The position numbers and the translations under genes were made by a program. The notes under the pieces were generated by a model, which made no database searches, had not been told where the DNA came from, and worked only from the letters and a program-made list of their open reading frames with translations. This document shows, piece after piece, positions 33,877 through 45,768 of a stretch of 64,000 nt of DNA (positions within the stretch are counted from its first letter, which is position 1; every line of letters begins with the position of its first letter). The DNA comes from Leptolyngbya sp. SIO1E4. GTDB taxonomy: Bacteria > Cyanobacteriota > Cyanobacteriia > Phormidesmidales > Phormidesmidaceae. The DNA is taken from positions 1,934,001 through 1,998,000 of the forward strand of contig JAAHFU020000002.1 of assembly GCA_010672825.2 (NCBI GenBank), written 5' to 3'.

Positions 33877-34062
33877 CGGTTTTGTAGCCAGGAATACGCT
33901 GCGTAGAAACACTTAATTGAAACTTTATATAAGGGTTATACGACATCAAGATTAGGAGAACTCGGCGCTAAGGCATAGGCACAAATATGACACAAGCCTT
34001 AGCTTCGGAGAATCCGATTGGATTACAGCACAAAGCCAAGCAACTTTAGGAGTGTGAAAGTT

Positions 34063-34383
34063 ATGGAAAGCCTTCGCTTGAATTTGACAGTGGTTCAGCC
34101 TAACGGTGTCCTAAATGCAGCCAATGCCCCTGCGTTGCAAGCTCATCTCTCGGAACAGATTTCATCGGATACGTCAGCAGGCTTAATGATAGACATGAGC
34201 CGGGTCGAGTCTCTGGATAGTGCTGGGTTAGTTTCTTTGGTGTCTACCCTGCGCCTGGCCCGCAATCTGAGCAAGCGTTTTTGCTTGTGTTCGGTATCGC
34301 CCTCTATTCGGATAGTGTTTGAACTTGCTCAACTTGACCAAGTGTTTGAGTTTGTTGAAGAAATGTCCGTTCAAGCTGCATAG
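34063..34383 (+). CDS. STAS-domain anti-sigma factor antagonist-like protein
   Basis: A 106-residue single STAS domain. MIDMSRVESLDSAGLVSLVS is the signature with the phosphorylatable serine in the LDSAG motif, and LCSVSPSIRIVFELAQLDQVFEF completes the fold. Such proteins work in partner-switching with serine kinases and PP2C-type phosphatases. AGGAGTG lies 9 bases before the ATG at 34063. An in-frame ATG at 34018 lacks a ribosome site. A PP2C/SpoIIE-type phosphatase is encoded 8 kb downstream in the hydrogenase region, but a link is speculative. Confidence 0.88.
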   Translation: MESLRLNLTVVQPNGVLNAANAPALQAHLSEQISSDTSAGLMIDMSRVESLDSAGLVSLVSTLRLARNLSKRFCLCSVSPSIRIVFELAQLDQVFEFVEEMSVQAA

Positions 34384-34633: not shown

Positions 34634-35029
34634 ATGTTTCAAGATCCCCATCTGCGGGGGGCGATCGCGGTTGCCCTGGGGGCGATCGCTGGGGCATTGG
34701 GTCGTTACTATGTGACCTTGGGCTGTACCTACTGGTTCGGGAGTTCTGTCTATGGCACCCTGCTGGTGAATTTAGCGGGCGCCTGGGTGATGGGTTTTTT
34801 CACTACCCTGATGGCCCTGCGGGTCTTGCATTTGCCTCAAGAAGTCATTTTGTTGGTCAGTACAGGCTTCCTGGGGTCTCTCACCACCTTTTCGACGTAC
34901 ACCCTGGATACGATGAACCTGGCCGGGGTCTATACACTCCGCCTGTCCCTCCTCTATTGGCTGGGCACTGCTGTCTGTGGGGTTATCAGTTTGTATGGGG
35001 GCATATTCACCGCGCGCTTATTGCAGTAA
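34634..35029 (+). CDS. crcB: Fluoride efflux protein CrcB/Fluc
   Basis: A 131-residue, four-helix dual-topology fluoride channel that lowers cytoplasmic fluoride. Signatures are GTLLVNLAGAWVMGFFTTL and STGFLGSLTTFSTYTLD with the conserved Asn, Phe and Thr-Phe-Ser-Thr residues. Length is normal. The DUF190 gene begins 34 bases downstream, a pairing commonly seen for this gene family. It starts with ATG at 34634. Confidence 0.93.
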   Translation: MFQDPHLRGAIAVALGAIAGALGRYYVTLGCTYWFGSSVYGTLLVNLAGAWVMGFFTTLMALRVLHLPQEVILLVSTGFLGSLTTFSTYTLDTMNLAGVYTLRLSLLYWLGTAVCGVISLYGGIFTARLLQ

Positions 35030-35063
35030 AAAGACTGTAAGAAGCCCCATTGAGGTGAAAATT

Positions 35064-35396
35064 ATGCCCCCTTGGAAAAAACTCAGCATCTATACCAGTG
35101 AAGGGAGTCGATTTGGCACCCGTCCGCTCCATTCGGCCATCATTGCTACTGCCCTAGAGCAGGAACTCTACAGTGTGATGGCTCTGAAGGCAATGGAAGG
35201 GTTTGGGCCACAAATGGCAATTCTCACGGCCAATCAAATGGCTCTGGCCTCTGATTTGCCGATTGAGGTCAGAATTTTAGATGAAGCAGCCATCATCGAG
35301 GCGTTTCTCACCGATCAGGCGGAAATGCTCACGGGCTGTTTGATTACCTTAGAAGACATTGAGATTGTGCAGTTGCCCCCCTCAGTCCTATCCTGA
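35064..35396 (+). CDS. DUF190 domain protein
   Basis: A 110-residue DUF190 protein with PII-like ferredoxin fold: WKKLSIYTSEGSRFGTRPLHSAIIATALEQ (in parts) is the conserved opening. It follows crcB by 34 bases and is presumably cotranscribed with it; DUF190 genes neighbour crcB in many bacteria, suggesting a fluoride-related role that is not biochemically settled. The ATG at 35064 has GAGGTG 7 bases before it; a longer frame would overlap crcB. Confidence 0.85.
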   Translation: MPPWKKLSIYTSEGSRFGTRPLHSAIIATALEQELYSVMALKAMEGFGPQMAILTANQMALASDLPIEVRILDEAAIIEAFLTDQAEMLTGCLITLEDIEIVQLPPSVLS

Positions 35397-35514
35397 AGCG
35401 TTATGGAATTTGGCAACTAGGCAACGGCTCAATCGTCACTCAATCGGGGCTTAATCCTGTTTTCTTGCGTTAGCCACGGAGTATTAAAATTCGTCATCCC
35501 TCATATAGGGATAA

Positions 35515-35615
35515 CAAATATAGCAAAAGGCAGAAATCAAAACCTTGTTGCATAAGGATTCCAGGGAATCTGATTGTCCTAACTAGCATCTCAGGCACAA
35601 TATAGGACAACGAGG
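35515..35615 (+). repeat. Family D repeat
   Basis: AATATAGCAAAAGGCAGAAA, then TCAAAACCTTGTTGCATAAG, then TGTCCTAACTAGCATCTCAG and CACAATATAGG. Ends contain TATAGC and TATA, as in other D copies. Confidence 0.75.
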
Positions 35616-35985
35616 TTGCTATCCCTACCGGGTGTTTGGACACAGGGGTGCAGAAGACCTAATTGAAAGCCCAAAATTTTCCTGTTTTTCACTATCATTT
35701 TTCAACAAAAAAATTGGCTACAAAAATGCTTTCATCAAACTAATTTAGACAGTTCAGTAGGGGGGTGAATCTTTGTCGAAATGCAGCTTAATCGTTATCC
35801 AGAAGACCTTGAATAAGGGTGTACAAGATTAACTTTTTAGTGAGAGAAGATTAAGACTATCTGTGTCTTTGGTGCGGGATCAAGTGGGTCTTATAACACG
35901 GTAAGTAACGGGTCAGCGCTCTGAGTGCAACGAGTGTCGACGGGGTACTGAGCGAATGACCGACCATGCCTAGTGAGGTTCTTTT
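35616..35985 (+). promoter_or_regulatory. Upstream region of the hox operon
   Basis: A 370-base, AT-rich stretch with no gene precedes hoxE and must hold the operon promoter. I could not fix a -10/-35 pair. GTGAGG lies 6 bases before the hoxE ATG. Regulators known for hox promoters in other cyanobacteria are LexA and AbrB-like proteins; no site could be assigned by eye. Confidence 0.4.
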
Positions 35986-36525
35986 ATGCCCACTGCTGCT
36001 GTAACAAATGCCGAAAAAACCCCGAAATCTGCTGGCCCCAAGGCTCAGAAAAAAGATAAGGGTGGCGATCGCCGTCTGAAGCGCATCGACGTCACCATGA
36101 AGCGCAACCAGTACAAACCAGATGCGCTGATCGAGGTTTTACATGCTGCTCAAGAAGCCTTTGGATATCTAGACGAGGCGGTGCTGCTCCATGTGGCACG
36201 GGGGCTGAAGTTGCCCCTGAGTCGGGTTTATGGAGTGGCTACTTTTTATCACCTGTTTACCCTGAAGCCCAGTGGTGCCCATAACTGTGTCGTCTGTATG
36301 GGCACAGCCTGTTATGTGAAGGGGGGCGGCAAGGTGATGGAAGCCCTGCAGGCCGAGTTGGGGATTGAGGTGGGTGAAACCACGCCCGATGGCCAAGTCT
36401 CTCTGATGGCAGCCCGCTGCTTAGGGGCCTGTGGCATTGCCCCTGCAGTGGTCTATGACGGTGAGATCGCTGGTAAGCAACAACCCGATCAGGCGATCGC
36501 CAAAATCAAGGAGCTTCAAGGTTAG
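35986..36525 (+). CDS. hoxE: Bidirectional hydrogenase diaphorase subunit HoxE
   Basis: A 179-residue NuoE-like thioredoxin-fold subunit holding one [2Fe-2S] cluster; with HoxF and HoxU it forms the NAD(P)H/ferredoxin-linked diaphorase of the Hox hydrogenase in the cytoplasm. Ligands are Cys104 and Cys109 in CMGTAC, and Cys145 and Cys149 in CLGAC. FGYLDEAVLLHVARGL and YGVATFYHLF are typical. A lysine-rich N-terminal 35 residues are flexible. hoxF starts 82 bases downstream. Confidence 0.95.
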   Translation: MPTAAVTNAEKTPKSAGPKAQKKDKGGDRRLKRIDVTMKRNQYKPDALIEVLHAAQEAFGYLDEAVLLHVARGLKLPLSRVYGVATFYHLFTLKPSGAHNCVVCMGTACYVKGGGKVMEALQAELGIEVGETTPDGQVSLMAARCLGACGIAPAVVYDGEIAGKQQPDQAIAKIKELQG

Positions 36526-36607
36526 GCCACGTAAGTTGCGGTTGGTTTAACTGAGGATCGATTCTCGATCCCACCCTTAGGCTCAAACATTGGGAGGAGA
36601 AGGGCAC

Positions 36608-38245
36608 ATGGATTTGACTGAACTCAGAGAAGTCGCACAAGCGGAAAAGGAGAGACAGGGAAGTATCCGAGTTCACTGCTGTACGTCCACTGGCTGCCGG
36701 GCGGCGAGCTCAATGGAAGTCTTCCGCAATCTGGAAGCAGCCGTAGAAGAGCATCAATGTGGCGATCGCATCGAAGTGGTGAGCGTTGGCTGCATGGGGT
36801 TTTGTGGTCAGGGGCCACTGGTGCAGGTTGAGCCCGGTGAGCAGCTGTATGAAGAGGTCGAGCCTGATGATGCTGGCAGCATCATCAGCGCCACGGTGGG
36901 CAAAGGCACCGCCAGCACCACCCAGCTGGATCCCCACCATCCGTTTTTCGCTTACCAGACGCGCGTGGTACGGCAGAACAGCGGCAATATTGACCCTGAG
37001 AGCATTGAAGAATACATTGCCGTGGGGGGCTATGAGTCTCTGTATAAGGCGCTGTATGAGATGACCCCAGAAGCGGTGGTGGCTGAAATCTCTAACAGCG
37101 GCTTACGGGGGCGGGGCGGCGGCGGCTACCCCACTGGCCTGAAGTGGGCCACCGTGGCGAAAATGCCTGGCGATCAAAAATACGTGATCTGTAATGGGGA
37201 CGAAGGTGACCCTGGTGCTTTTATGGATCGCAGCGTCTTGGAGAGCGATCCGCACCTGGTGCTAGAAGGGATGGCGATCGCAGGCTATGCGGTGGGTGCT
37301 AACCACGGCTACATCTACGTGCGGGCAGAATATCCCCTCGCCATCAAGCGTCTGCAGAAGGCGATTCAGCAAGCCAAGAAATATGGTCTGATGGGGAGCC
37401 AGGTGTTCGATTCTCCCTTTGACTTCAGAGTCGATATCCGCATTGGTGCGGGGGCCTTTGTCTGTGGCGAAGAAACGGCCCTGATTCAATCTATCGAAGG
37501 CGGGCGCGGCAACCCGGTTCCTCGCCCTCCCTACCCAGCGGAAAAGGGGCTCTACAACAGCCCGACCCTGATTAACAACGTCGAAACCCTCGCCAACATT
37601 GCCCACATTATTCGCGAAGGGGCCGATTGGTACGCCAGCATTGGTACCGAGGATAGTAAAGGCACCAAGGTGTTTGCCCTGACGGGCAATATCCGCAATA
37701 ACGGCCTGATTGAAGTGCCGATGGGCATTACCCTGCGGCAAATCGTAGAAGACATGGGGGGTGGGGTTCCCGATGGGGAAGTTAAGGCCGTGCAAACGGG
37801 AGGCCCTTCTGGTGGCTGCATTCCCAAGCAGCTGCTAGATACCCCTGTAGACTACAAATCCCTTCGAGAGGTGGGCTCCATGATGGGCTCTGGCGGCATG
37901 GTGGTGATGGATCAAGACACCAGCATGGTCGAAATTGCCCACTTCTACATGGAATTTTGTCGCGGTGAAACCTGTGGCAAATGCGTGCCCTGTCGCACCG
38001 GTACCGTACAGCTCTATGGCCTGTTGACCAAACTCCTGAAAGGTCAGGCCACCGAGGCCGATTTAGAGCAGATGAAAGCCTTGTCCTACATGGTGAAAGA
38101 CACTAGCCTCTGCGGCTTGGGGCAAACGGCCCCGAACCCAGTACTCAGCACCCTACGCTACTTCCCCGAGGAGTACACCTCTTTGCTCGTAAAGCCTGCC
38201 TACTTGAATGGCAAGACTGCCGAGCCTAAGCCAGTGTCTGTGTAG
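36608..38245 (+). CDS. hoxF: Bidirectional hydrogenase diaphorase subunit HoxF
   Basis: A 545-residue NuoF-like subunit binding FMN, NAD(P)H and iron-sulfur clusters. An N-terminal thioredoxin-like [2Fe-2S] region has cysteines at 25, 30, 62 and 66 (CTSTGC and CMGFC). The NAD-binding loop [14 protein letters not shown] is near 167-179, GAYVCGEE-like [12 protein letters not shown] binds FMN, and a [4Fe-4S] cluster is held by CGKCVPC (456-462) with a fourth Cys at DTSLCGLG. The ATG at 36608 has GGGAGGAG 8 bases upstream; a TTG at 36590 would overlap that site. Confidence 0.96.
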
Positions 38246-38269
38246 GTGACCCCGATGGAGAGATGAACC

Positions 38270-38986
38270 ATGGCCGTTAGAACACTCAAAATTGATGATA
38301 AAGACGTTGCGGTAGAAGCCGGGGCCACCATTATGGAGGCTGCTCAGGAGGCTGGGGTACAAATTCCTCGGCTGTGTCACCTGGAAGGGCTGTCCCCGGT
38401 TGGGGCCTGTCGCCTATGCCTGGTTGAAATTGAGGGCCTGAACAAGCTCCTGCCCGCCTGTGTCACCGAAGTCTGGGAGGGCATGGTGATACAGACCCAA
38501 ACGTCAAAGCTGCAAGACTACCGACGCATGGCGGTAGAGCTGATTTTTGCGGAAGGCAACCACGTTTGCTCGATTTGCGTGGCCAATGGCAACTGCGAAC
38601 TGCAAGATGTGGCCATTGAAGTGGGAATGGATCACAGTCGCTTTCCCTATCGCTTCCCCGATCGCGGGGTTGACCTGTCCCATGAGCGCTTCGGCATTGA
38701 CCACAACCGCTGCATTCTCTGCACCCGCTGTGTCCGAGTGTGCGACGAGGTGGAAGGGGCTCACGTGTGGGATGTGGGTAGCCGGGGGGCCTCTTGCTTT
38801 ATTGTTTCGGGTTTGGCCCAGCCCTGGGGTGAGGTTGATGCCTGCACCTCCTGTGGCAAGTGTGTCGATGCCTGCCCCACGGGTGCCATTTTCCATAAAG
38901 GCGAAACCACCGGTGAGAAACAGCGCGATCGCGACAAATTTGCCTTCCTATCAACTGCACGGGAGGAGCAGCAATGGACAAGATAA
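38270..38986 (+). CDS. hoxU: Bidirectional hydrogenase diaphorase subunit HoxU
   Basis: A 238-residue iron-sulfur subunit related to the N-terminus of NuoG. A [2Fe-2S] ferredoxin part has cysteines at 36, 47, 50 and 64 (RLCHLEG, GACRLCLVEIEG, PACVTE), then a His/Cys-ligated region (NHVCSICVANGNCELQ), and two [4Fe-4S] clusters (CILCTRCVRVC and CTSCGKCVDACPTGA). It wires HoxF to the hydrogenase module. It overlaps hoxY by 13 bases, so they are co-translated. Confidence 0.96.
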   Translation: MAVRTLKIDDKDVAVEAGATIMEAAQEAGVQIPRLCHLEGLSPVGACRLCLVEIEGLNKLLPACVTEVWEGMVIQTQTSKLQDYRRMAVELIFAEGNHVCSICVANGNCELQDVAIEVGMDHSRFPYRFPDRGVDLSHERFGIDHNRCILCTRCVRVCDEVEGAHVWDVGSRGASCFIVSGLAQPWGEVDACTSCGKCVDACPTGAIFHKGETTGEKQRDRDKFAFLSTAREEQQWTR

Positions 38987-39525
38987 AATTTGCAACGGCC
39001 TGGCTCGCAGGCTGCTCTGGCTGCCACATGTCCTTTTTGGACCTGGATGAATTTTTAATCGATCTGGCAGGCTTCGTTGACGTGGTATTTAGCCCCGTGG
39101 GGAGCGACCTGAAAGACTATCCTGACGGGGTCGATGTCTGCTTGGTGGAAGGGGCGATCGCCAACGAAGATAATCTAGAGCTGGCCTTAGAAATTCGCCG
39201 CAAGACCAAGATTCTCATTTCCTTTGGAGACTGTGCCGTCACCGCTAACGTCCCTGCCATGCGCAACATGATGGGGGGCGGGGCCGAGCCGGTTCTGAAG
39301 CGAGGATACTTAGAATTGGCTGACAAAAATCCTCATTTCCCCCATGCTCCTGGTATTGTTCCAGAATTGTTAGACCGGGTACGCCCAATTCATGAAGTGA
39401 TCCCTGTGGATATCTTCATGCCGGGGTGCCCGCCCTCCGCCGATCGCATTCGCGCTACCTTGGAACCCCTGTTACACGGTCAGCAGCCGGATATGGTCGG
39501 TCGAGACATGATCAAATTCGGTTAA
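38974..39525 (+). CDS. hoxY: Bidirectional hydrogenase small subunit HoxY
   Basis: A 183-residue NiFe-hydrogenase small subunit carrying the proximal [4Fe-4S] cluster. Ligands are Cys14 and Cys17 in AGCSGCHMSFLDLDE, another Cys in SFGDCAVTAN, and the last in MPGCPPSADRI. No Tat signal is present, so the enzyme is cytoplasmic, as expected for Hox. It begins inside hoxU and is followed 21 bases later by a CP12-like gene rather than directly by hoxH. Confidence 0.95.
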   Translation: MDKIKFATAWLAGCSGCHMSFLDLDEFLIDLAGFVDVVFSPVGSDLKDYPDGVDVCLVEGAIANEDNLELALEIRRKTKILISFGDCAVTANVPAMRNMMGGGAEPVLKRGYLELADKNPHFPHAPGIVPELLDRVRPIHEVIPVDIFMPGCPPSADRIRATLEPLLHGQQPDMVGRDMIKFG

Positions 39526-39546
39526 TACCGTGAGGAGCTTATTGCC

Positions 39547-39780
39547 ATGAGTGTTGAAAATCAGAAGTTTCAGGACGAATTGGAAAAGGCCAGAGCCTAT
39601 GCCCGGTCTGTCTGTGCAGACAAAGGAGAAGATGCGCCTGAATGCGCTGCGGCTTGGGATGCCGTAGAAGAGATGCAGGCAGAGGTCTCTCACCAGCATC
39701 AGCAACCGGAAAAGAGCAACTTTGACAAATACGTCGAAGAAAATCCTGAAGCGCCTGAAGCTCGCATTTACGAAGACTAA
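39547..39780 (+). CDS. CP12-like protein lacking the C-terminal cysteine pair
   Basis: A 77-residue CP12-domain protein. CP12 is a small redox switch that in the dark forms disulfides and ties GAPDH and phosphoribulokinase into an inactive complex. The core AAAWDAVEEMQAEVSHQ (34-50) and the N-terminal cysteines 23 and 33 are conserved. The C-terminal pair that closes the GAPDH-binding loop is gone: YVEENPEAPEARIYED has Val63 and Ala72 where a canonical protein has Cys. GAGGAG lies 9 bases before the ATG. It sits between hoxY and hoxH, so cotranscription with hydrogenase is near certain, and a regulatory link is likely. Confidence 0.88.
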   Translation: MSVENQKFQDELEKARAYARSVCADKGEDAPECAAAWDAVEEMQAEVSHQHQQPEKSNFDKYVEENPEAPEARIYED

Positions 39781-39785
39781 TTGTG

Positions 39786-39815
39786 TTTAGAGCCGCAAAA
39801 TTTTGCGGCTCTAAA
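39786..39815. promoter_or_regulatory. Perfect 30-base palindrome between cp12-like and hoxH
   Basis: TTTAGAGCCGCAAAA is followed directly by its exact complement, TTTTGCGGCTCTAAA, with no loop. It falls 25 bases before the hoxH start. In RNA it gives a stem of about 13 bp around an AAAATTTT turn, suitable for an attenuator or RNase processing point; as DNA it could be a protein-binding dyad. Confidence 0.6.
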
Positions 39816-39840
39816 CCCGTTCGTTGAAGGGAGATCATCA

Positions 39841-41268
39841 ATGTCTAAGACCGTTGTTATCGATCCCATTACCCGCATTGAGGGGCACGCCAAAATTTCT
39901 GTTTACCTGGATGACGCGGGCGAAGTGTCAGATGCCCGTTTTCATGTGGTTGAATATCGGGGCTTTGAAAAGTTTTGCGAAGGTCGTCCCTTCACGGAAA
40001 TGGCCGGAATCACTGCCCGCATTTGCGGCATTTGCCCAGTGAGTCACCTCATTTGCGCCGCCAAGACCGGAGACAAAATTTTAGCGGTCAAAGTCCCAAA
40101 AGCGGCAGACAAGCTGCGGCGGCTTCTGAATCTGGCCCAGCTTACCCAGTCCCACGCGTTGTCCTTTTTCCACCTCAGCAGCCCTGACTTTTTGTTGGGA
40201 TGGGACAGTGACCCGGCTAAGCGCAACGTATTTGGGCTGATTGCCGCCGATCCAGAGTTAGCCCGAGCGGGCATTCGGCTACGGCAGTTTGGCCAACAAA
40301 TTATTGAAATCCTCGGCGGGCGCAAGATTCATGCTGCCTGGACGGTGCCCGGTGGGGTGCGATCGCCCCTCAGCGAAGACGGTCGGGCTTGGATTGTGGA
40401 TCGCCTCCCTGAATCCTTAGCGACGACGCGCAAAGCCCTCGACATTTTTAAGGGGCTGATTGATGGGCCGATGAAGGAAGAAGTTCAGGTGTTTGGAGAA
40501 TTTCCTTCCCTGTTTATGAGCCTGGTCGCCCCAGACGGGGCTTGGGAGCACTATGACGGCCACCTACGATTTACCGATAGCACCGGCAATATCGTCGCCG
40601 ATAACCTGCGCGAAGATGACTATGCCAACTTTATCGGCGAAGCCGTCGAAGACTGGTCGTACCTGAAGTTTCCTTACTATAAGCCCCTGGGCTACCCTGA
40701 GGGCATTTACCGGGTGGGGCCCCTGGCCCGTCTTAACACCTGCAGCCATATCAACACGCCGGGGGCCGATGCCGAACTCAGAGCCTTTCGGGACTATGCC
40801 GGGGGCGTGCCCACCTCTTCTTTCCTGTACCACTACGCCCGGCTGATTGAAATCCTCGGCTGCCTGGAGAAAATTCAGGAGTACATGGACGATCCAGATC
40901 TGATGTCTTCGCGCTGTCGAGCAGAAGCTGGGGTGAATGAACTCGAGGCGATCGGCGTCAGTGAGGCTCCGCGTGGTACGCTCTTTCACCATTACAAAGT
41001 GGATGAGTATGGCCTGATTGAGCAGGTGAATCTGATTATTGCCACCGGCCACAACAACCTGGCGATGAATAAGACGATCACCCAAATCGCTAAGCGCCAT
41101 GTCCATGGAGAAGACATTCAGGAAGGGTTCCTGAACCGGGTGGAGGCGGGGATTCGCTGCTTTGACCCCTGCCTTTCCTGTTCTACCCATGCGGTGGGGC
41201 AGATGCCCCTGCAGATTCAGGTAATGGATGCAGCCGGTGCGATCGTGCAGGAATTGGTGCGAGATTAG
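39841..41268 (+). CDS. hoxH: Bidirectional NiFe-hydrogenase large subunit HoxH
   Basis: A 475-residue catalytic subunit with the NiFe active site. Metal ligands are Cys62 and Cys65 in [10 protein letters not shown] and Cys444 and Cys447 in DPCLSCSTH; HoxW should cut the tail after His450, leaving 25 residues ([10 protein letters not shown]..) to remove. The enzyme evolves or takes up H2, linked to NAD(P)H or ferredoxin. [20 protein letters not shown] is the canonical start; GGGAG lies 9 bases before the ATG. It is preceded by the palindrome and the CP12-like gene. Confidence 0.97.
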
Positions 41269-41277
41269 CGATGTTTT

Positions 41278-41306
41278 GTCGGGGCACGGGCACTCTCTGC
41301 CCCGAC
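41278..41306. promoter_or_regulatory. Intercistronic hairpin after hoxH
   Basis: GTCGGGGCA (41278-41286) and TGCCCCGAC (41298-41306) pair perfectly with an 11-base loop. No T-run follows, so it may separate hoxH from the sensory genes at the mRNA level without full termination. Confidence 0.5.
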
Positions 41307-41381
41307 TGAGGGTGCTCAAGGCTGAGATAGAACCCAGCGTGATCTAACACAGGTGACCTAACCCTAAGGAATGTGCGATCG

Positions 41382-41660
41382 ATGGCCAAAGAAAATCTAT
41401 TTCTCTGTATGGGGTCCGCCTGCCACCAATTGGGAGTCTATGACGTGCTGCCCAAGCTGCAGGAACTGATTGTGGAGCATGATCTCGGAGATGAGATCGA
41501 ACTCAAGGGCTCCTTTTGCTTAGAAACCTGCAGTCGGGGCATTGCCATGAAGTTTCAAGACACCCACTTTTCTAACATTAGCCCTCAGAATGTGGAGATC
41601 AAATTTAAGGAAGAAATTTTACCGGTCATCCAAGCTGTGCTGGCCCATGCTGCCCCATAG
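41382..41660 (+). CDS. Thioredoxin-like [2Fe-2S] protein
   Basis: A 92-residue thioredoxin-like ferredoxin. The four ligands are Cys9 and Cys14 in FLCMGSACHQLG and Cys46 and Cys50 in GSFCLETCSRG, the same C-x4-C...C-x3-C spacing as NuoE/HoxE. In anaerobes a small protein of this type stands next to PAS and SpoIIE proteins in [FeFe]-hydrogenase loci. Here it follows hoxH by 113 bases and precedes a PAS gene. A role in redox sensing for the hydrogenase is inferred. A GTG at 41373 is an alternative start. Confidence 0.82.
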   Translation: MAKENLFLCMGSACHQLGVYDVLPKLQELIVEHDLGDEIELKGSFCLETCSRGIAMKFQDTHFSNISPQNVEIKFKEEILPVIQAVLAHAAP

Positions 41661-41759
41661 TGATGGAATTAATACCGTGTAGAAATGCAATATACCGTGT
41701 TTCTGTCTCCCGAGAATTACTAGGATGCTATACAAATACTGTTTCAAATTCTCGTATTC

Positions 41760-42317
41760 ATGGCTTCTGATGCTGTCGAAACTCAAACCCCCAACCATCT
41801 CTGGCAACTGTTATGGGAGTACGATCCCAACGGGTTGATTGTGGTAGATGCAGATCTCTACATTAAGCTGGTGAACCCAGCCTTTTGCCGGATGTTTAAA
41901 ACAGAGGCGGATGATGTTATTGGACAGCCTGCCGAAACGATTCTGGATGACGTTCAAGACTTTAAAAAGGTTTGGAAAACAGGGCAACTGATTAATGGCA
42001 AACTGAAGGAGTATTTGCATCATCAGCTATTCGTCAGTCAGGTTATTTTCCCCATTGAAGATGAAGGAATCATTGCGTGTATTATGGTGGATTTTAGCCA
42101 CGAACTTGCACAGCGCAAAGAACTGACACAGCTTAAGCAAGAGACGGTCAAAAAGGTCAATCAAGTGGTTGACAACCAGATGAAGGTAGTTCAAGAAATT
42201 GCCGGTTTGCTGGGGGAAACTACAGCGGAAACGAAGGTGAGTCTTCTTAAAATTATCGAAATGCTGCAGCACGAAGAAGCGAATTTATCCGTTTATCCAT
42301 CGAACCAACCTGATTAA
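41760..42317 (+). CDS. PAS-domain sensory protein
   Basis: A 185-residue protein: a PAS domain at about 15-115 (LLWEYDPNGLIVVDADLYIK LVNPAFCRMF, in two parts, and DVIGQPAETILDDVQDF) followed by an amphipathic helical tail (KQETVKKVNQVVDNQMKVVQ). No kinase or output domain is attached. It ends 13 bases before the SpoIIE-type phosphatase. PAS plus phosphatase in neighbouring genes is a sensor/effector arrangement; the ligand is unknown, but redox, oxygen or flavin are the usual choices. Confidence 0.85.
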   Translation: MASDAVETQTPNHLWQLLWEYDPNGLIVVDADLYIKLVNPAFCRMFKTEADDVIGQPAETILDDVQDFKKVWKTGQLINGKLKEYLHHQLFVSQVIFPIEDEGIIACIMVDFSHELAQRKELTQLKQETVKKVNQVVDNQMKVVQEIAGLLGETTAETKVSLLKIIEMLQHEEANLSVYPSNQPD

Positions 42318-42330
42318 GGTGAGATCGGAG

Positions 42331-43497
42331 ATGACCGTTGATAACTTTCTCGATGTTTATGAAACCAGCTTGAATAAGAAGGGCGAGGAGCTGTGTGGTG
42401 ATAAGGTCAAATTCCTGAAAGCCAATAAACGCTCCATCGTGGTGTTGTCTGACGGTTTAGGGAGCGGGGTCAAGGCCAATATTTTGGCGACTCTGACCAC
42501 GGAAATCTTAATTACCATGCTCAACGCGGATTTGCCGTTAGAGGAGGTTCTTAAAACCGTTATTGCCACACTGCCCATCTGCCAAACTCGTAAAATTGCC
42601 TACTCAACCTTTACGATTTTGCAGGTCGATCGCGCCACTAATCACTTTAAGCTCATCAACTTCGATAACCCCCCGCCCCTCTATGTCCATAACGGCAAAG
42701 TCATGACCCTGGATATGGAAGTTCAGGAGATTTTGGGGCGCAAGATTAAGGTGGCTGAGGGTTACCTCTCTCGGGGTGATTTTCTGGGGGCCTTGAGCGA
42801 TGGGGTCTTGTATGCTGGCATGGGCACCACCCTTAACTTTGGCTGGGGGTGGGATAACATTGCAGACCACATTGAAAATGTCCTGCGGCACAAGGCGCAG
42901 ACAGCTCGCACCATCGTGCGGGATGTGATTGCCAAAACCTACGACCTCTACCGGGGTGAAATTGGTGACGATGCCACGTTTGTGGGCATTTATGTGCGGC
43001 CCCGCAACCCCCTGATGATTTTCACGGGGCCGCCCCTCGATCAGGACCAAGACGAAAACTATGTCAATCGCTTTCTGCAATTTGAAGGGCGCAAAGCTAT
43101 CTGTGGGGGGACAACGGGCAACATCATTGCCAACTATCTGGGGGAAACCATTGAGATGGATCTCTCCACCATGCGCCGAGAACTGCCACCCATCGGGATG
43201 CTGAGCTGTGTGGATTTGGTGACAGAGGGGATTTTAACCCTGTCAAAGGCGACGGAATATATCAAAAACTGCCAGTGCGATCTGAGCCGCTTGCACTTTG
43301 ACAACAATGGAGCTTACCTCCTCGCCCGCGAAATTTTGCAGGCCGACTCCATTCATTTTTTGATTGGTCAAAGCATCAACGAGTTTTACCAAAATCCGCT
43401 GTTGCCTAAAAATATTTCTATTCGCCGCAGCTTGGTAGAAGATCTGGTGCATTTGCTGCAGCGGTACCAAAAGGAGGTTTCCTTTGAATATTGTTGA
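42331..43497 (+). CDS. SpoIIE/PP2C-type serine phosphatase of the hydrogenase-linked type
   Basis: A 388-residue phosphatase. Metal-binding motifs are ELCGDKV, VLSDGLGSGVKANILATLT, GALSDGVLYAG and GDDATFVGIYV. The C-terminal ~150 residues (AICGGTTGNIIANYL, ELPPIGMLSCVDLVTEG) are an extra domain. I recognise the whole layout from SpoIIE-like proteins in [FeFe]-hydrogenase gene clusters of Firmicutes and Thermotogae. The ATG at 42331 has AAGGTGAG 7 bases before it. It is likely the effector of the PAS/ferredoxin cassette, acting on an unseen phospho-protein such as a STAS protein. Confidence 0.88.
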   Translation: MTVDNFLDVYETSLNKKGEELCGDKVKFLKANKRSIVVLSDGLGSGVKANILATLTTEILITMLNADLPLEEVLKTVIATLPICQTRKIAYSTFTILQVDRATNHFKLINFDNPPPLYVHNGKVMTLDMEVQEILGRKIKVAEGYLSRGDFLGALSDGVLYAGMGTTLNFGWGWDNIADHIENVLRHKAQTARTIVRDVIAKTYDLYRGEIGDDATFVGIYVRPRNPLMIFTGPPLDQDQDENYVNRFLQFEGRKAICGGTTGNIIANYLGETIEMDLSTMRRELPPIGMLSCVDLVTEGILTLSKATEYIKNCQCDLSRLHFDNNGAYLLAREILQADSIHFLIGQSINEFYQNPLLPKNISIRRSLVEDLVHLLQRYQKEVSFEYC

Positions 43498-43612
43498 GAC
43501 CTGCCTGAGCGTATTGCTGGAGGGGCATCAACTCCCTGTAGAGCCGCGAGATTTTAGGTTGCTACATTCTGGTCAAACGGTGGGATGGTTTGCCAGCAGG
43601 ACACCCCGATGA
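43484..43612 (+). CDS. Candidate 42-residue microprotein between the phosphatase and hoxW
   Basis: A TTG at 43484 has AAGGAGG 6 bases upstream, the strongest ribosome site in the cluster, inside the end of the phosphatase gene. The frame reads MNIVETCLSVLLEGHQLPVE and then PRDFRLLHSGQTVGWFASRTPR, and its TGA forms an ATGA overlap with the hoxW start. Neighbouring genes overlap this way when translation is coupled. I do not recognise the protein. It may be a true microprotein or only a coupling frame that delivers ribosomes to hoxW. Confidence 0.5.
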   Translation: MNIVETCLSVLLEGHQLPVEPRDFRLLHSGQTVGWFASRTPR

Positions 43613-44037
43613 AGACCCTGGTGATTGGCTATGGCAACACCCTGCGGGGGGATGATGGCGTTGGCTACCGCATCGCTGAGCAGGTAGAGACGTGGGCGTT
43701 GCCCAATGTCAAGGCGATCGCCTGTCATCAACTTACTCCAGAGCTAGCGGCAGAGATTGCCGAGTGCGATCGCGTCTTTTTTGTCGATGCCACCTTACCC
43801 GGTACGTGCCAGACGGTTACCGTGCAGCCTGTGCCGTTATCCTCAACGGCTGCGCTCGACACCCACCACAGTGACCCAAAGGGGCTGCTCAGGTTAGCGG
43901 TGACCCTATATCAGGCTAGCCCACAGGCATATCAGGTTTTGATGCCGACAGTGGCGATGGACTTTGGTGAACAACTCTCAGATCAGGCCCAGGCAGGGCT
44001 GCAGGAAGCGCTGCAGCACCTTCGCAGCCAGCTGTAG
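43609..44037 (+). CDS. hoxW: Hydrogenase maturation protease HoxW
   Basis: A 142-residue HybD/HoxW-type endopeptidase that trims the HoxH tail once nickel is inserted. KTLVIGYGNTLRGDDGVGYR holds the conserved GN and DDG motif with the first nickel-sensing acid, FVDATLPG the second, and a later His-bearing stretch follows. The ATG at 43609 overlaps the 42-codon frame by four bases. Being in the same direction and at the end of the hox series, it completes the set with hoxEFUYH. Confidence 0.92.
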   Translation: MKTLVIGYGNTLRGDDGVGYRIAEQVETWALPNVKAIACHQLTPELAAEIAECDRVFFVDATLPGTCQTVTVQPVPLSSTAALDTHHSDPKGLLRLAVTLYQASPQAYQVLMPTVAMDFGEQLSDQAQAGLQEALQHLRSQL

Positions 44038-44160
44038 CGCTTAGGCATCGCGCTTTTGACATAGCCAAAGCTGGCCAAAGGGGTGTGGGCTAGTGGCGAC
44101 AATGGCGGCTAATTCGCGATTAAATGGGTAGGATTACTCGTCACTTTCAGTGAGCCACTT

Positions 44161-45768
44161 GTGTCAGACACAAAATCTACCCGTTCTCTAGCAGGCATCG
44201 CGGGCATTGTTGCGGCTGCCACCCTGATTAGCAAGGTTTTTGGCCTGGTGCGTCAGCAGGCGATCGCCGCTGCATTTGCGGTTGGCCCAGTGGCCGATGC
44301 CTACAACTTTTCTTATGTGATCCCCGGCTTTTTGCTGGTGTTGCTGGGGGGCATTAATGGCCCCTTTCACAGCGCCATCGTTAGCGTGGTGGCTAAGCGC
44401 AGGCGGGAAGAGATTGGCCCATTAGTGGAATCGATCAGCACCTTGGTGAGTCTGGTGCTGATTGTCGTGGCCCTGATACTGGCTCTGTTTGCGGCCCCTA
44501 TTATTGACCTGGCAGCCCAAGGCCTGGCTGACACGGATCCGGTGGCGCGGGCGATCGCTATTCAGCAGCTGCGGATCATGGCTCCGATGGCGGTTTTTGC
44601 TGGGCTGATTGGCATCGGCTTTGGCACCCTCAACGCGGATGACCAGTACTGGCTGCCTTCTGTGAGCCCCATGTTTTCTAGCGTGGCGGTGATTGTGGGT
44701 TTGGGGCTGCTGTATGTGGCGATCGGTCGTGACATCACAGCGCCCAACTACTTTATGCTCGGGGGCATGGTGCTGGCCGGGACGACGCTGCTGGGGGCCG
44801 TGATGCAGTGGCTGGTGCAGCTGCCTGCCCTGTGGCGATCGGGTCTGGGTCGGTTACGGCTGCGGTTTAACTGGCGCGATTCGGGCGTCCGTCAGGTGTT
44901 TAAGATTCTGGTGCCAGCCACCTTTTCGTCTGGCATGATGCAGATCAACGTCTTCACCGATTTGTTTTTTGCCTCTTTCATTCCGGGTACGGCGGCGGCG
45001 CTGGGCTATGCCAACCTGCTGGTGCAAACGCCCTTGGGTATTATCTCCAACGTGATTTTGGTGCCCTTTCTGCCCGTCTTTGCCCGGTTGGCCGCCCCCG
45101 AAAATTGGCCAGAACTGAAGGATCGCATCCGCCAGAGCCTGATGATGACGGCCCTCACCATGTTGCCCTTGGGCGCCCTCATCATGACCCTGGCCCTGCC
45201 CATTGTGCAGGTGATTTATAAGCGGGGGGCCTTTGACCTGGAGGCGGCAGAAGTTGTCACCTCTGTGCTGGTGGCCTATGGCCTGGGCATGTTTGTTTAC
45301 CTGGCGCGGGATGTGCTGGTGCGGGTTTACTATGCCCTGGGGGATGGGCAAACCCCGTTTCGCATCAGTCTGGTCAACATTGGCCTTAACGCCCTGTTGG
45401 ACTATTTTTTCATTCGCTGGTTTGGGGCGCCGGGGCTGGTATTCGCAACAGTTGGGGTCAACATTACTTCTACGCTGGCGATGGTGGTTTTGCTGAATCG
45501 CAAGCTCAACGGGCTGCCCTGGCTGCAGTGGGGGCGGTCCATTGCGCTGTTGTCAGGGCTGAGTGGCCTGGCTGGGCTGGCGGCCTGGGGCACGCGGCTC
45601 GGGCTAGAGCAGGTCTTGGGTATCGAAGGGTTTATTAACCGGCTGGTGCAGCTGGCGATCGCGGGCTCCCTGGGGCTCGCTATCTTTGCCCTGGGGACGC
45701 TCGCTCTGCGAATTCCTGAAACGACGCTGCTGGTCAACCGCATTAAGGGGCGTTTCATGCGCCGATAG
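44161..45768 (+). CDS. murJ: Lipid II flippase MurJ
   Basis: A 535-residue MviN/MurJ protein with about 14 membrane helices that flips lipid II for peptidoglycan synthesis. AATLISKVFGLVRQQAIAAAF at the N-terminus is the signature, with the conserved LxR, and MQINVFTDLFFASFIPGTAAALGYAN (in parts) is typical. It starts at a GTG at 44161 with no strong ribosome site. Position 124 bases after hoxW suggests a separate unit. It is essential in most bacteria; a second copy is possible. Confidence 0.93.
   Translation: MSDTKSTRSLAGIAGIVAAATLISKVFGLVRQQAIAAAFAVGPVADAYNFSYVIPGFLLVLLGGINGPFHSAIVSVVAKRRREEIGPLVESISTLVSLVLIVVALILALFAAPIIDLAAQGLADTDPVARAIAIQQLRIMAPMAVFAGLIGIGFGTLNADDQYWLPSVSPMFSSVAVIVGLGLLYVAIGRDITAPNYFMLGGMVLAGTTLLGAVMQWLVQLPALWRSGLGRLRLRFNWRDSGVRQVFKILVPATFSSGMMQINVFTDLFFASFIPGTAAALGYANLLVQTPLGIISNVILVPFLPVFARLAAPENWPELKDRIRQSLMMTALTMLPLGALIMTLALPIVQVIYKRGAFDLEAAEVVTSVLVAYGLGMFVYLARDVLVRVYYALGDGQTPFRISLVNIGLNALLDYFFIRWFGAPGLVFATVGVNITSTLAMVVLLNRKLNGLPWLQWGRSIALLSGLSGLAGLAAWGTRLGLEQVLGIEGFINRLVQLAIAGSLGLAIFALGTLALRIPETTLLVNRIKGRFMRR

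Follow-up and report, generated by a model that had tools for sequence, protein, structure and literature searches.

A CP12-domain gene lacking the C-terminal cysteine pair between hoxY and hoxH of Leptolyngbya sp. SIO1E4, and the recurrence of CP12-domain genes at this position in cyanobacterial hox clusters

We found a stand-alone gene of the CP12 family between hoxY and hoxH in the hox operon of Leptolyngbya sp. SIO1E4, within a stretch of 64,000 nucleotides that we refer to as the window. Its product has lost the C-terminal cysteine pair of canonical CP12, its orthologues are under purifying selection in genomes with and without hox genes, and CP12-domain genes recur at the same position (hereafter, the slot) in other cyanobacterial hox clusters. 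We tentatively favour the reading that it is a non-canonical CP12 without the GAPDH clamp, acting on phosphoribulokinase (PRK) and made together with Hox where Hox exists; its job is probably the control of carbon fixation rather than that of a hydrogenase part.

The CP12 gene of the hox operon

The genes are arranged as hoxEFUY-CP12-hoxH, all lying on one strand through hoxW (Table 1), with 21 nt between the hoxY stop and the CP12 gene and 60 nt between the CP12 gene and the hoxH start codon; cotranscription of the group is presumed. The Pfam CP12 profile (PF02672) matched the 77-aa protein with 87 bits (cut-off 22.7; E 1.5e-24) and was the sole Pfam domain found, the CBS domain pair being absent. 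The AWD_VEE core is present as AAAWDAVEEM and the N-terminal cysteine pair is retained, while the C-terminal pair of canonical CP12 (CxxxPxxxxC) is missing from the end of the protein, which reads SNFDKYVEENPEAPEARIYED. The valine and alanine codons found there are each two base changes away from a cysteine codon. The initial annotation, made from the sequence alone, had described a protein with the CP12 core, Cys23/Cys33 and Val63/Ala72 between hoxY and hoxH, and the open reading frame, the codons and the Pfam match confirm this description.

Table 1. Features of the hox region, in positions of the window.
Feature	Position	Strand	Basis or remark
hoxE	35986..36525	+	NCBIfam HoxE, 264.9 bits
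hoxF	36608..38245	+	ORF and domain search; ORF listing begins at TTG 36590
hoxU	38270..38986	+	ORF; same gene order in relatives; name assigned by position
hoxY, hydrogenase small subunit, directly 5' of the CP12 gene	38974..39525	+	Orthologues of slot relatives 75-89% identical; name assigned by position
CP12-domain protein, 77 aa, Cys23/Cys33, Val63/Ala72	39547..39780	+	ORF with ATG start
Val63 codon GTC, at the first C-terminal Cys of canonical CP12	39733..39735	+	
Ala72 codon GCT, at the second C-terminal Cys of canonical CP12	39760..39762	+	
Perfect palindrome of 32 nt between the CP12 stop and hoxH	39785..39816	.	No second copy of the 24-nt centre in the genome
hoxH, NiFe hydrogenase large subunit, directly 3' of the CP12 gene	39841..41268	+	ORF and profile search
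hoxW, hydrogenase maturation protease	43585..44037	+	NCBIfam TIGR00072, 85.3 bits

The AlphaFold model of the protein (13 sequences; mean pLDDT 80, pTM 0.53), which shows it without a partner, comprised predicted helices at residues 3-26 and 31-50 followed by two short C-terminal helices. Its best structural matches in the PDB were CP12 and CBS-CP12: Foldseek recovered CP12 in the complex with GAPDH (6gfo, 6ghl) and the CP12 part of a CBS-CP12 (5npl_A, rmsd 0.7 over 43 columns). The best PDB match by sequence was likewise CBS-CP12 (5nmu, 5npl, 5nvd; 3.6e-20), the structures being from Microcystis aeruginosa (PMC9623430). Most CBS-CP12 proteins also lack the second C-terminal cysteine; unlike them, the window protein has no CBS domains, and its identity to the seven intact slot CBS-CP12s, aligned over their CP12 part, was 38-48%. 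With canonical cyanobacterial CP12 (e.g. 6gfo; sequence match E 9.1e-17) it shares the full-length CP12 domain, the core and the N-terminal pair, but it differs in the missing C-terminal pair, and the canonical proteins form a clade of their own.

The 60-nt gap before hoxH contains the palindrome listed in Table 1. When folded as RNA, the CP12-hoxH gap (63 nt) gave -27.2 kcal/mol (z -5.7), and 4 out of the 6 such gaps folded had a strong hairpin (z -3.2 to -5.7), which was absent in the other 2. In particular, the relatives L067, L079 and L080 carried different strong hairpins at this site, and L082 and L083 had none. The hairpin could separate hoxH expression from that of the upstream genes, and it speaks against the part of our favoured reading in which CP12 is produced together with Hox. 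A promoter and terminator scan of positions 35300-44200 gave no excess over shuffled sequences and no candidate in the gaps flanking the CP12 gene.

Other genes of the region may be noted. Downstream of hoxH (41373-43497) we found genes for a 95-aa protein that had no Pfam or NCBIfam match, a PAS protein and a SpoIIE-type phosphatase, and the same trio was found again 3' of hoxH in several cyanobacterial hox clusters. A STAS protein is encoded at 34018-34383, and together with the SpoIIE phosphatase it may form a partner-switching system that regulates the hox region. Finally, crcB and a DUF190 gene are situated 5' of hoxE (34634-35396).

Location, cysteines and constraint of the orthologues

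We searched 63 genomes of the order and recovered the window-type CP12 in 34 of them, as a single copy in each (E <= 1.6e-24); the next-best match (E 1.3e-21) came from a longer protein. The gene occupied the slot in 11 of the 34 genomes, including one (G038) in which it follows hoxY directly at a contig end and hoxH opens another contig, and it was located elsewhere in the remaining 23. No hoxH was detected at E <= 1e-100 in 17 of the 34 carriers, and 16 of these 17 genomes were at least 90% complete. In six further carriers hoxH was found elsewhere in the genome, not adjoining the CP12 gene; it was similar to that of the window in three of them and only a more distant one in the other three.

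Two types of hoxH were distinguished in the order, 77-100% and 65-69% identical to that of the window. The similar type was present in 16 genomes: 11 had the CP12 gene in the slot, four had a slot without it (G012, G042, G048, G049), and the last, G050, is an incomplete genome with a short gap in which no window-type CP12 was found. The HoxH proteins of the ten other slot genomes were 81-87% identical to that of the window. Across the order, the window-type CP12 was associated with the similar hoxH type (14/34 vs 2/29; Fisher p 0.003, uncorrected for kinship). Among the 10 genomes with the more distant type, five had a slot gene for a CBS protein that retains a CP12 remnant (L056-L060), two had a short gap and three were not assessable; in the two such CBS proteins that were scanned, the remnant scored 21.0 and 17.1 bits, under the Pfam cut-off of 22.7.

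Outside hox, the gene was found at a recurrent site in the Nodosilinea group. At the five loci read (L018, L019, L021, L026, L028; the genomes of L019 and L026 have the distant hoxH), CP12 followed an RNase D-like gene in all five cases, with an RRM gene next in four. The RNase D site also harboured CP12 in G042, whose hox slot lacks it, and in the hox-less G022. In the nine slot genomes tested (the window genome, G003 and seven Nodosilinea-group genomes), the 1.5 kb or so around the RNase D gene contained no CP12. In G007, where no hoxH was detected, the CP12 orthologue directly adjoins a DUF190 gene, a family that in the window lies upstream of hoxE; this neighbourhood may be a scar of hox loss and is given as a lead only, since the other flank does not match.

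These locations bear on the explanation that a relocatable CP12 paralogue came to lie in the operon by chance and has a function unrelated to H2. The single copy per genome at several sites, the alternation between the RNase D-like neighbour and the slot within the Nodosilinea group, and the hox-less genome with CP12 beside DUF190 are all in keeping with such passive linkage. The recurrence of the slot arrangement in seven families, reported below, is hard to obtain in this way, and on the whole we consider chance placement unlikely.

The 34 genomes yielded 33 distinct orthologue sequences, the window protein included, and none of the 33 had a cysteine at either C-terminal position. The loss of the C-terminal pair is therefore real and common to every orthologue examined. 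A sequencing error at codons 63 and 72, which the initial annotation had named as a possible source of the pattern, was rejected, since it would take two base changes at each codon and the same absence is common to all 33 distinct sequences. Both N-terminal cysteines were present in nine of the sequences and neither in the other 24 (25 of the 34 genomes). The latter all come from the genus group of Nodosilinea (g8, with Nodosilinea sp. P-1105 among its members), 7 of them in the slot and 17 elsewhere; inside or outside the hox operon, these proteins contain no cysteines and keep the core. Thus, the earlier view of a protein with only the N-terminal switch did not hold for the orthologues as a group.

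Two stretches were invariant over the 34 orthologues, the core A.AWD.VEEM.AE.SHQ and F..Y.E..P.A.E...Y, and the 77-aa frame was intact in all 34. For the 17 carriers without detected hoxH the median dN/dS was 0.033, taken over 106 usable pairs out of 136, of which 91 were within the Nodosilinea group (the three hox-less carriers outside that group gave no usable pair among themselves). For the 11 slot genes the median was 0.046, with 22 of 55 pairs usable and the rest saturated at silent sites. The loss of two to four cysteines might by itself suggest a decaying CP12 copy under relaxed selection, but the dN/dS values and the intact frames lead us to reject this as hardly credible. The protein is thus strongly constrained where no hydrogenase was detected and, in the Nodosilinea group, where every cysteine is missing, which counts against a disulfide switch, and equally against a role tied to Hox alone, as what selection has preserved. 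The suggestion of a new Hox partner, made at the outset, is accordingly not supported as an obligate role.

CP12-domain genes in the hoxY-hoxH slot across the phylum

We then sampled the cyanobacterial phylum evenly (386 genomes) and read about 10 kb around each hoxH, where the contig allowed. Of these, 87 had hoxH and 73 had an assessable gap, i.e. hoxY on the same strand and no more than 3 kb from hoxH. A CP12-domain ORF was present between hoxY and hoxH in 32 of the 73 clusters, 29 of them being CBS-CP12s (one, L346, a truncated match), the usual occupant of the slot, and three stand-alone. The cases were distributed over seven of the 21 assessable families (f7, 24/28; f14, 2/2; f1, 2/2; f6, 1/6; f19, f23 and f29, 1/1 each), so that 24 belonged to f7 and eight to six other families; none was seen in the other 14 assessable families, including f20 with 0/11. 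When only gaps of 300 nt to 3 kb were considered, 32 out of 43 held a CP12 domain, and some of the other 11 contained other genes. L282 and L286 encode, in the hoxY-hoxH gap, a protein that looks like a PIN-domain toxin.

Two further clusters had CP12 or CBS-CP12 3' of hoxH (L266, L297). The stand-alone CP12 of G089 is located some 0.6 kb 3' of hoxH. In a separate set, 12 of the best 80 hoxH loci listed had a CP12 domain in the slot, namely L086, L088, nine CBS-CP12s and one CBS-CP12 split in two ORFs (L123), some of the genomes being shared with our other samples. By a rough chance estimate, which assumes a handful of CP12 genes in every 5 Mb, fewer than one case is expected in 87 hoxH regions, far below the 32 observed, and some link between CP12 and H2 metabolism is thus likely. 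The proposal made from the single locus is partly supported, namely in its link between CP12 and H2 metabolism, whereas the N-terminal switch alone is not the conserved feature.

CP12 is known for turning carbon fixation off in the dark, and the bidirectional hydrogenase has been investigated as a valve for electrons. Should CP12-domain genes indeed have been placed inside hox operons repeatedly, both valves may be set jointly, and a small CP12 protein would then offer a means of directing electrons towards H2. The frequency of the arrangement makes this link testable in ordinary laboratory cyanobacteria that have the slot gene. We assume that Anabaena PCC 7120 is a member of f7, in which most gaps hold a CP12 domain, and that hoxH comes next after its gene alr0765. 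By its number, alr0765 follows hoxY (alr0764), and it is listed as a hypothetical protein in PMC4915528. PMC3610870 reports no additional ORFs in hoxEFUYHW of Nodularia spumigena CCY9414, in agreement with the 169-nt hoxY-hoxH gap without CP12 of G344, a member of f7 that we took to be this strain. The combination of cysteines seen in the window protein already has a place in an existing classification: Stanley, Raines and Kerfeld (2013), as described in PMC3906501, arranged CP12-like proteins in eight groups by cysteine pairs, core and CBS domains, and these groups cover an N-terminal pair and core without the C-terminal pair. The hox position and its recurrence are apparently new, though not with certainty, as we found no description of a CP12 gene in a hox cluster in the accessible portions of the literature on CP12, CBS-CP12 and the slot gene (including PMC3906501, PMC9623430, PMC3610870, PMC3858816, PMC7281370, PMC4915528, PMC9514657 and PMC9406205), the 2013 survey itself being outside the scope of the search.

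The initial annotation would have been contradicted by homologues with C-terminal cysteines at the same locus. A cysteine at the second C-terminal position was found in none of the 40 distinct slot CBS-CP12 sequences and none of the 11 window-type slot sequences, but the first C-terminal cysteine was kept in 30 of the 40, and at least eight slot CBS-CP12s (L136, L137, L150, L156, L267, L303, L337, L342) had a cysteine slightly further on, in a WCSG tail. All four cysteines occurred in only 4 of the 36 CBS-CP12 sequences from outside the slot, and likewise in two CBS-type sequences classed as other. Loss of the second C-terminal cysteine is therefore common across CBS-CP12s and not specific to hox. 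All 32 canonical sequences had four cysteines, but this group was defined by that criterion and thus provides no test.

The same patterns bear on the possibility that the Cys23-Cys33 pair alone is a redox switch coupling Calvin-cycle control to H2 metabolism. Both N-terminal cysteines are present in all nine distinct orthologues outside the Nodosilinea group, the window included, and in 36 of the 40 slot CBS-CP12s. On the other hand, all 24 sequences of the Nodosilinea group lack both under strong constraint, seven of them in the hox slot, and the stand-alone CP12s of other hox clusters (L236, L238, L124) also miss the N-terminal pair. We regard a role confined to this switch as improbable.

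In a first tree of 124 sequences, which used 16 of the 32 canonical sequences and excluded very gappy ones, the window-type clade was firm (100/100) and joined the CBS-CP12s of family f11 (99/94). In reduced trees of 80 sequences (5 long ones removed; 17 of 33 window-type, 10 of 16 canonical and alternate slot sequences kept), it joined canonical CP12 instead, with support of 94/81 with the cysteine columns and 98/83 without them (83 in a quick run), and its union with f11 was not rejected on the reduced sets (AU p 0.49 and 0.42). The sister of the window-type clade thus differs between trees, f11 CBS-CP12 or canonical CP12 being the candidates from these alignments. For the full-length proteins (63 sequences, with about half of the Nostocales-type slot sequences excluded beforehand), a single clade of slot CBS-CP12s was rejected (AU p 0.0025; 0.007 without the remnant type). 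With the short CP12 domain alone it was not rejected (p 0.40, and 0.27 with the window type added). The tree cannot separate two histories, repeated occupation of the slot and an ancient slot gene from which copies elsewhere also arose.

Another explanation is a CP12 scaffold recruited to a new partner, as a dedicated regulator or assembly factor contacting HoxYH or the HoxEFU diaphorase. The main argument for it is the occurrence of CP12-domain genes exactly in the slot of so many clusters and families, together with their high share of the longer gaps; the association looks repeated because a single slot CBS-CP12 clade was rejected on full-length proteins. However, that rejection fits repeated gain as well as one gain followed by moves out, and it was not reproduced with the domain alone. 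Moreover, CP12 is absent from the slot in 41 of the 73 assessable clusters, so that Hox needs none there, and half of the window-type carriers conserve the protein without a detected hoxH, with six more having hoxH elsewhere. A Hox-dedicated function seems to us rather unlikely.

Clusters with HoxH 66-70% identical to that of the window were also found on contigs labelled as Verrucomicrobia/Limisphaerales and Anaerolineae (L141, L155, L157-L159, L164), all of them MAGs in which mis-binning is possible; judged from these sequences, they suggest hox transfer between phyla.

Candidate roles and other CP12 genes of the genome

In Synechocystis, CP12 with altered C-terminal cysteines does not bind GAPDH, and its strain resembles the deletion mutant in how it uses glucose and re-oxidises NAD(P)H, whereas the variant of the N-terminal cysteines is near wild type (PMC9623430). 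The mutant of the C-terminal cysteines fails also in PMC9514657, where all three CP12 features matter but the core mutant still grew photomixotrophically; the core is therefore no proof of action on PRK. The N-terminal pair is important for PRK affinity elsewhere (PMC9623430, PMC9406205), and CP12s of S. elongatus and Galdieria without it still form the ternary complex, perhaps at lower affinity (PMC9406205). Finally, CBS-CP12 inhibits PRK without a ternary complex and responds to AMP (PMC9623430, PMC9514657).

Under the reading that we tentatively favour, the window protein would be a CP12 variant that has lost the GAPDH-clamping disulfide and kept the helical AWD_VEE core. It would bind and restrain PRK, a target taken from what is described for the family, without locking up GAPDH, and in the window species it would be produced together with the Hox hydrogenase. 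During dark or anoxic fermentation, the Calvin cycle would then be held at PRK, and GAPDH would remain available to the flux supplying the hydrogenase with NAD(P)H. Cys23-Cys33 may tune the restraint of PRK according to redox state in the window species, and the Nodosilinea relatives would work cysteine-free. Conservation in the 17 carriers without hoxH is as expected for a target outside Hox. Three points weigh against this reading: the N-terminal pair is lost in most of the genomes, a role on PRK alone does not explain the frequent CP12 genes between hoxY and hoxH, and the window protein retains the terminal RIYED, so some contact with GAPDH is possible. A broader and more speculative idea, to which we give a low probability, is that CP12-type regulators have come to occupy the slot again and again: the CBS-CP12s and stand-alone CP12s located there, which lack a complete GAPDH clamp, would make up a hydrogenase-linked branch of CP12 regulation. 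Such a branch would respond to AMP or to redox state and, through both PRK and the Hox enzyme, control how electrons pass between the Calvin cycle and H2.

The window genome (8.2 Mb) gave nine CP12 matches, some of them pieces of one gene. It also encodes a canonical four-cysteine CP12 (L001) and several CBS-CP12s, so the CP12 of the hox operon is an extra copy and not the sole one. At one locus (L005, contig C1, near 1202070-1203171) we observed CBS-CP12 genes in tandem; the CP12 C-terminus of one of them lies in a different frame, and the other consists of CBS fused straight to the C-terminal CP12 loop only. Comparable CBS-loop proteins adjoin a CBS-CP12 at L200 and L203.
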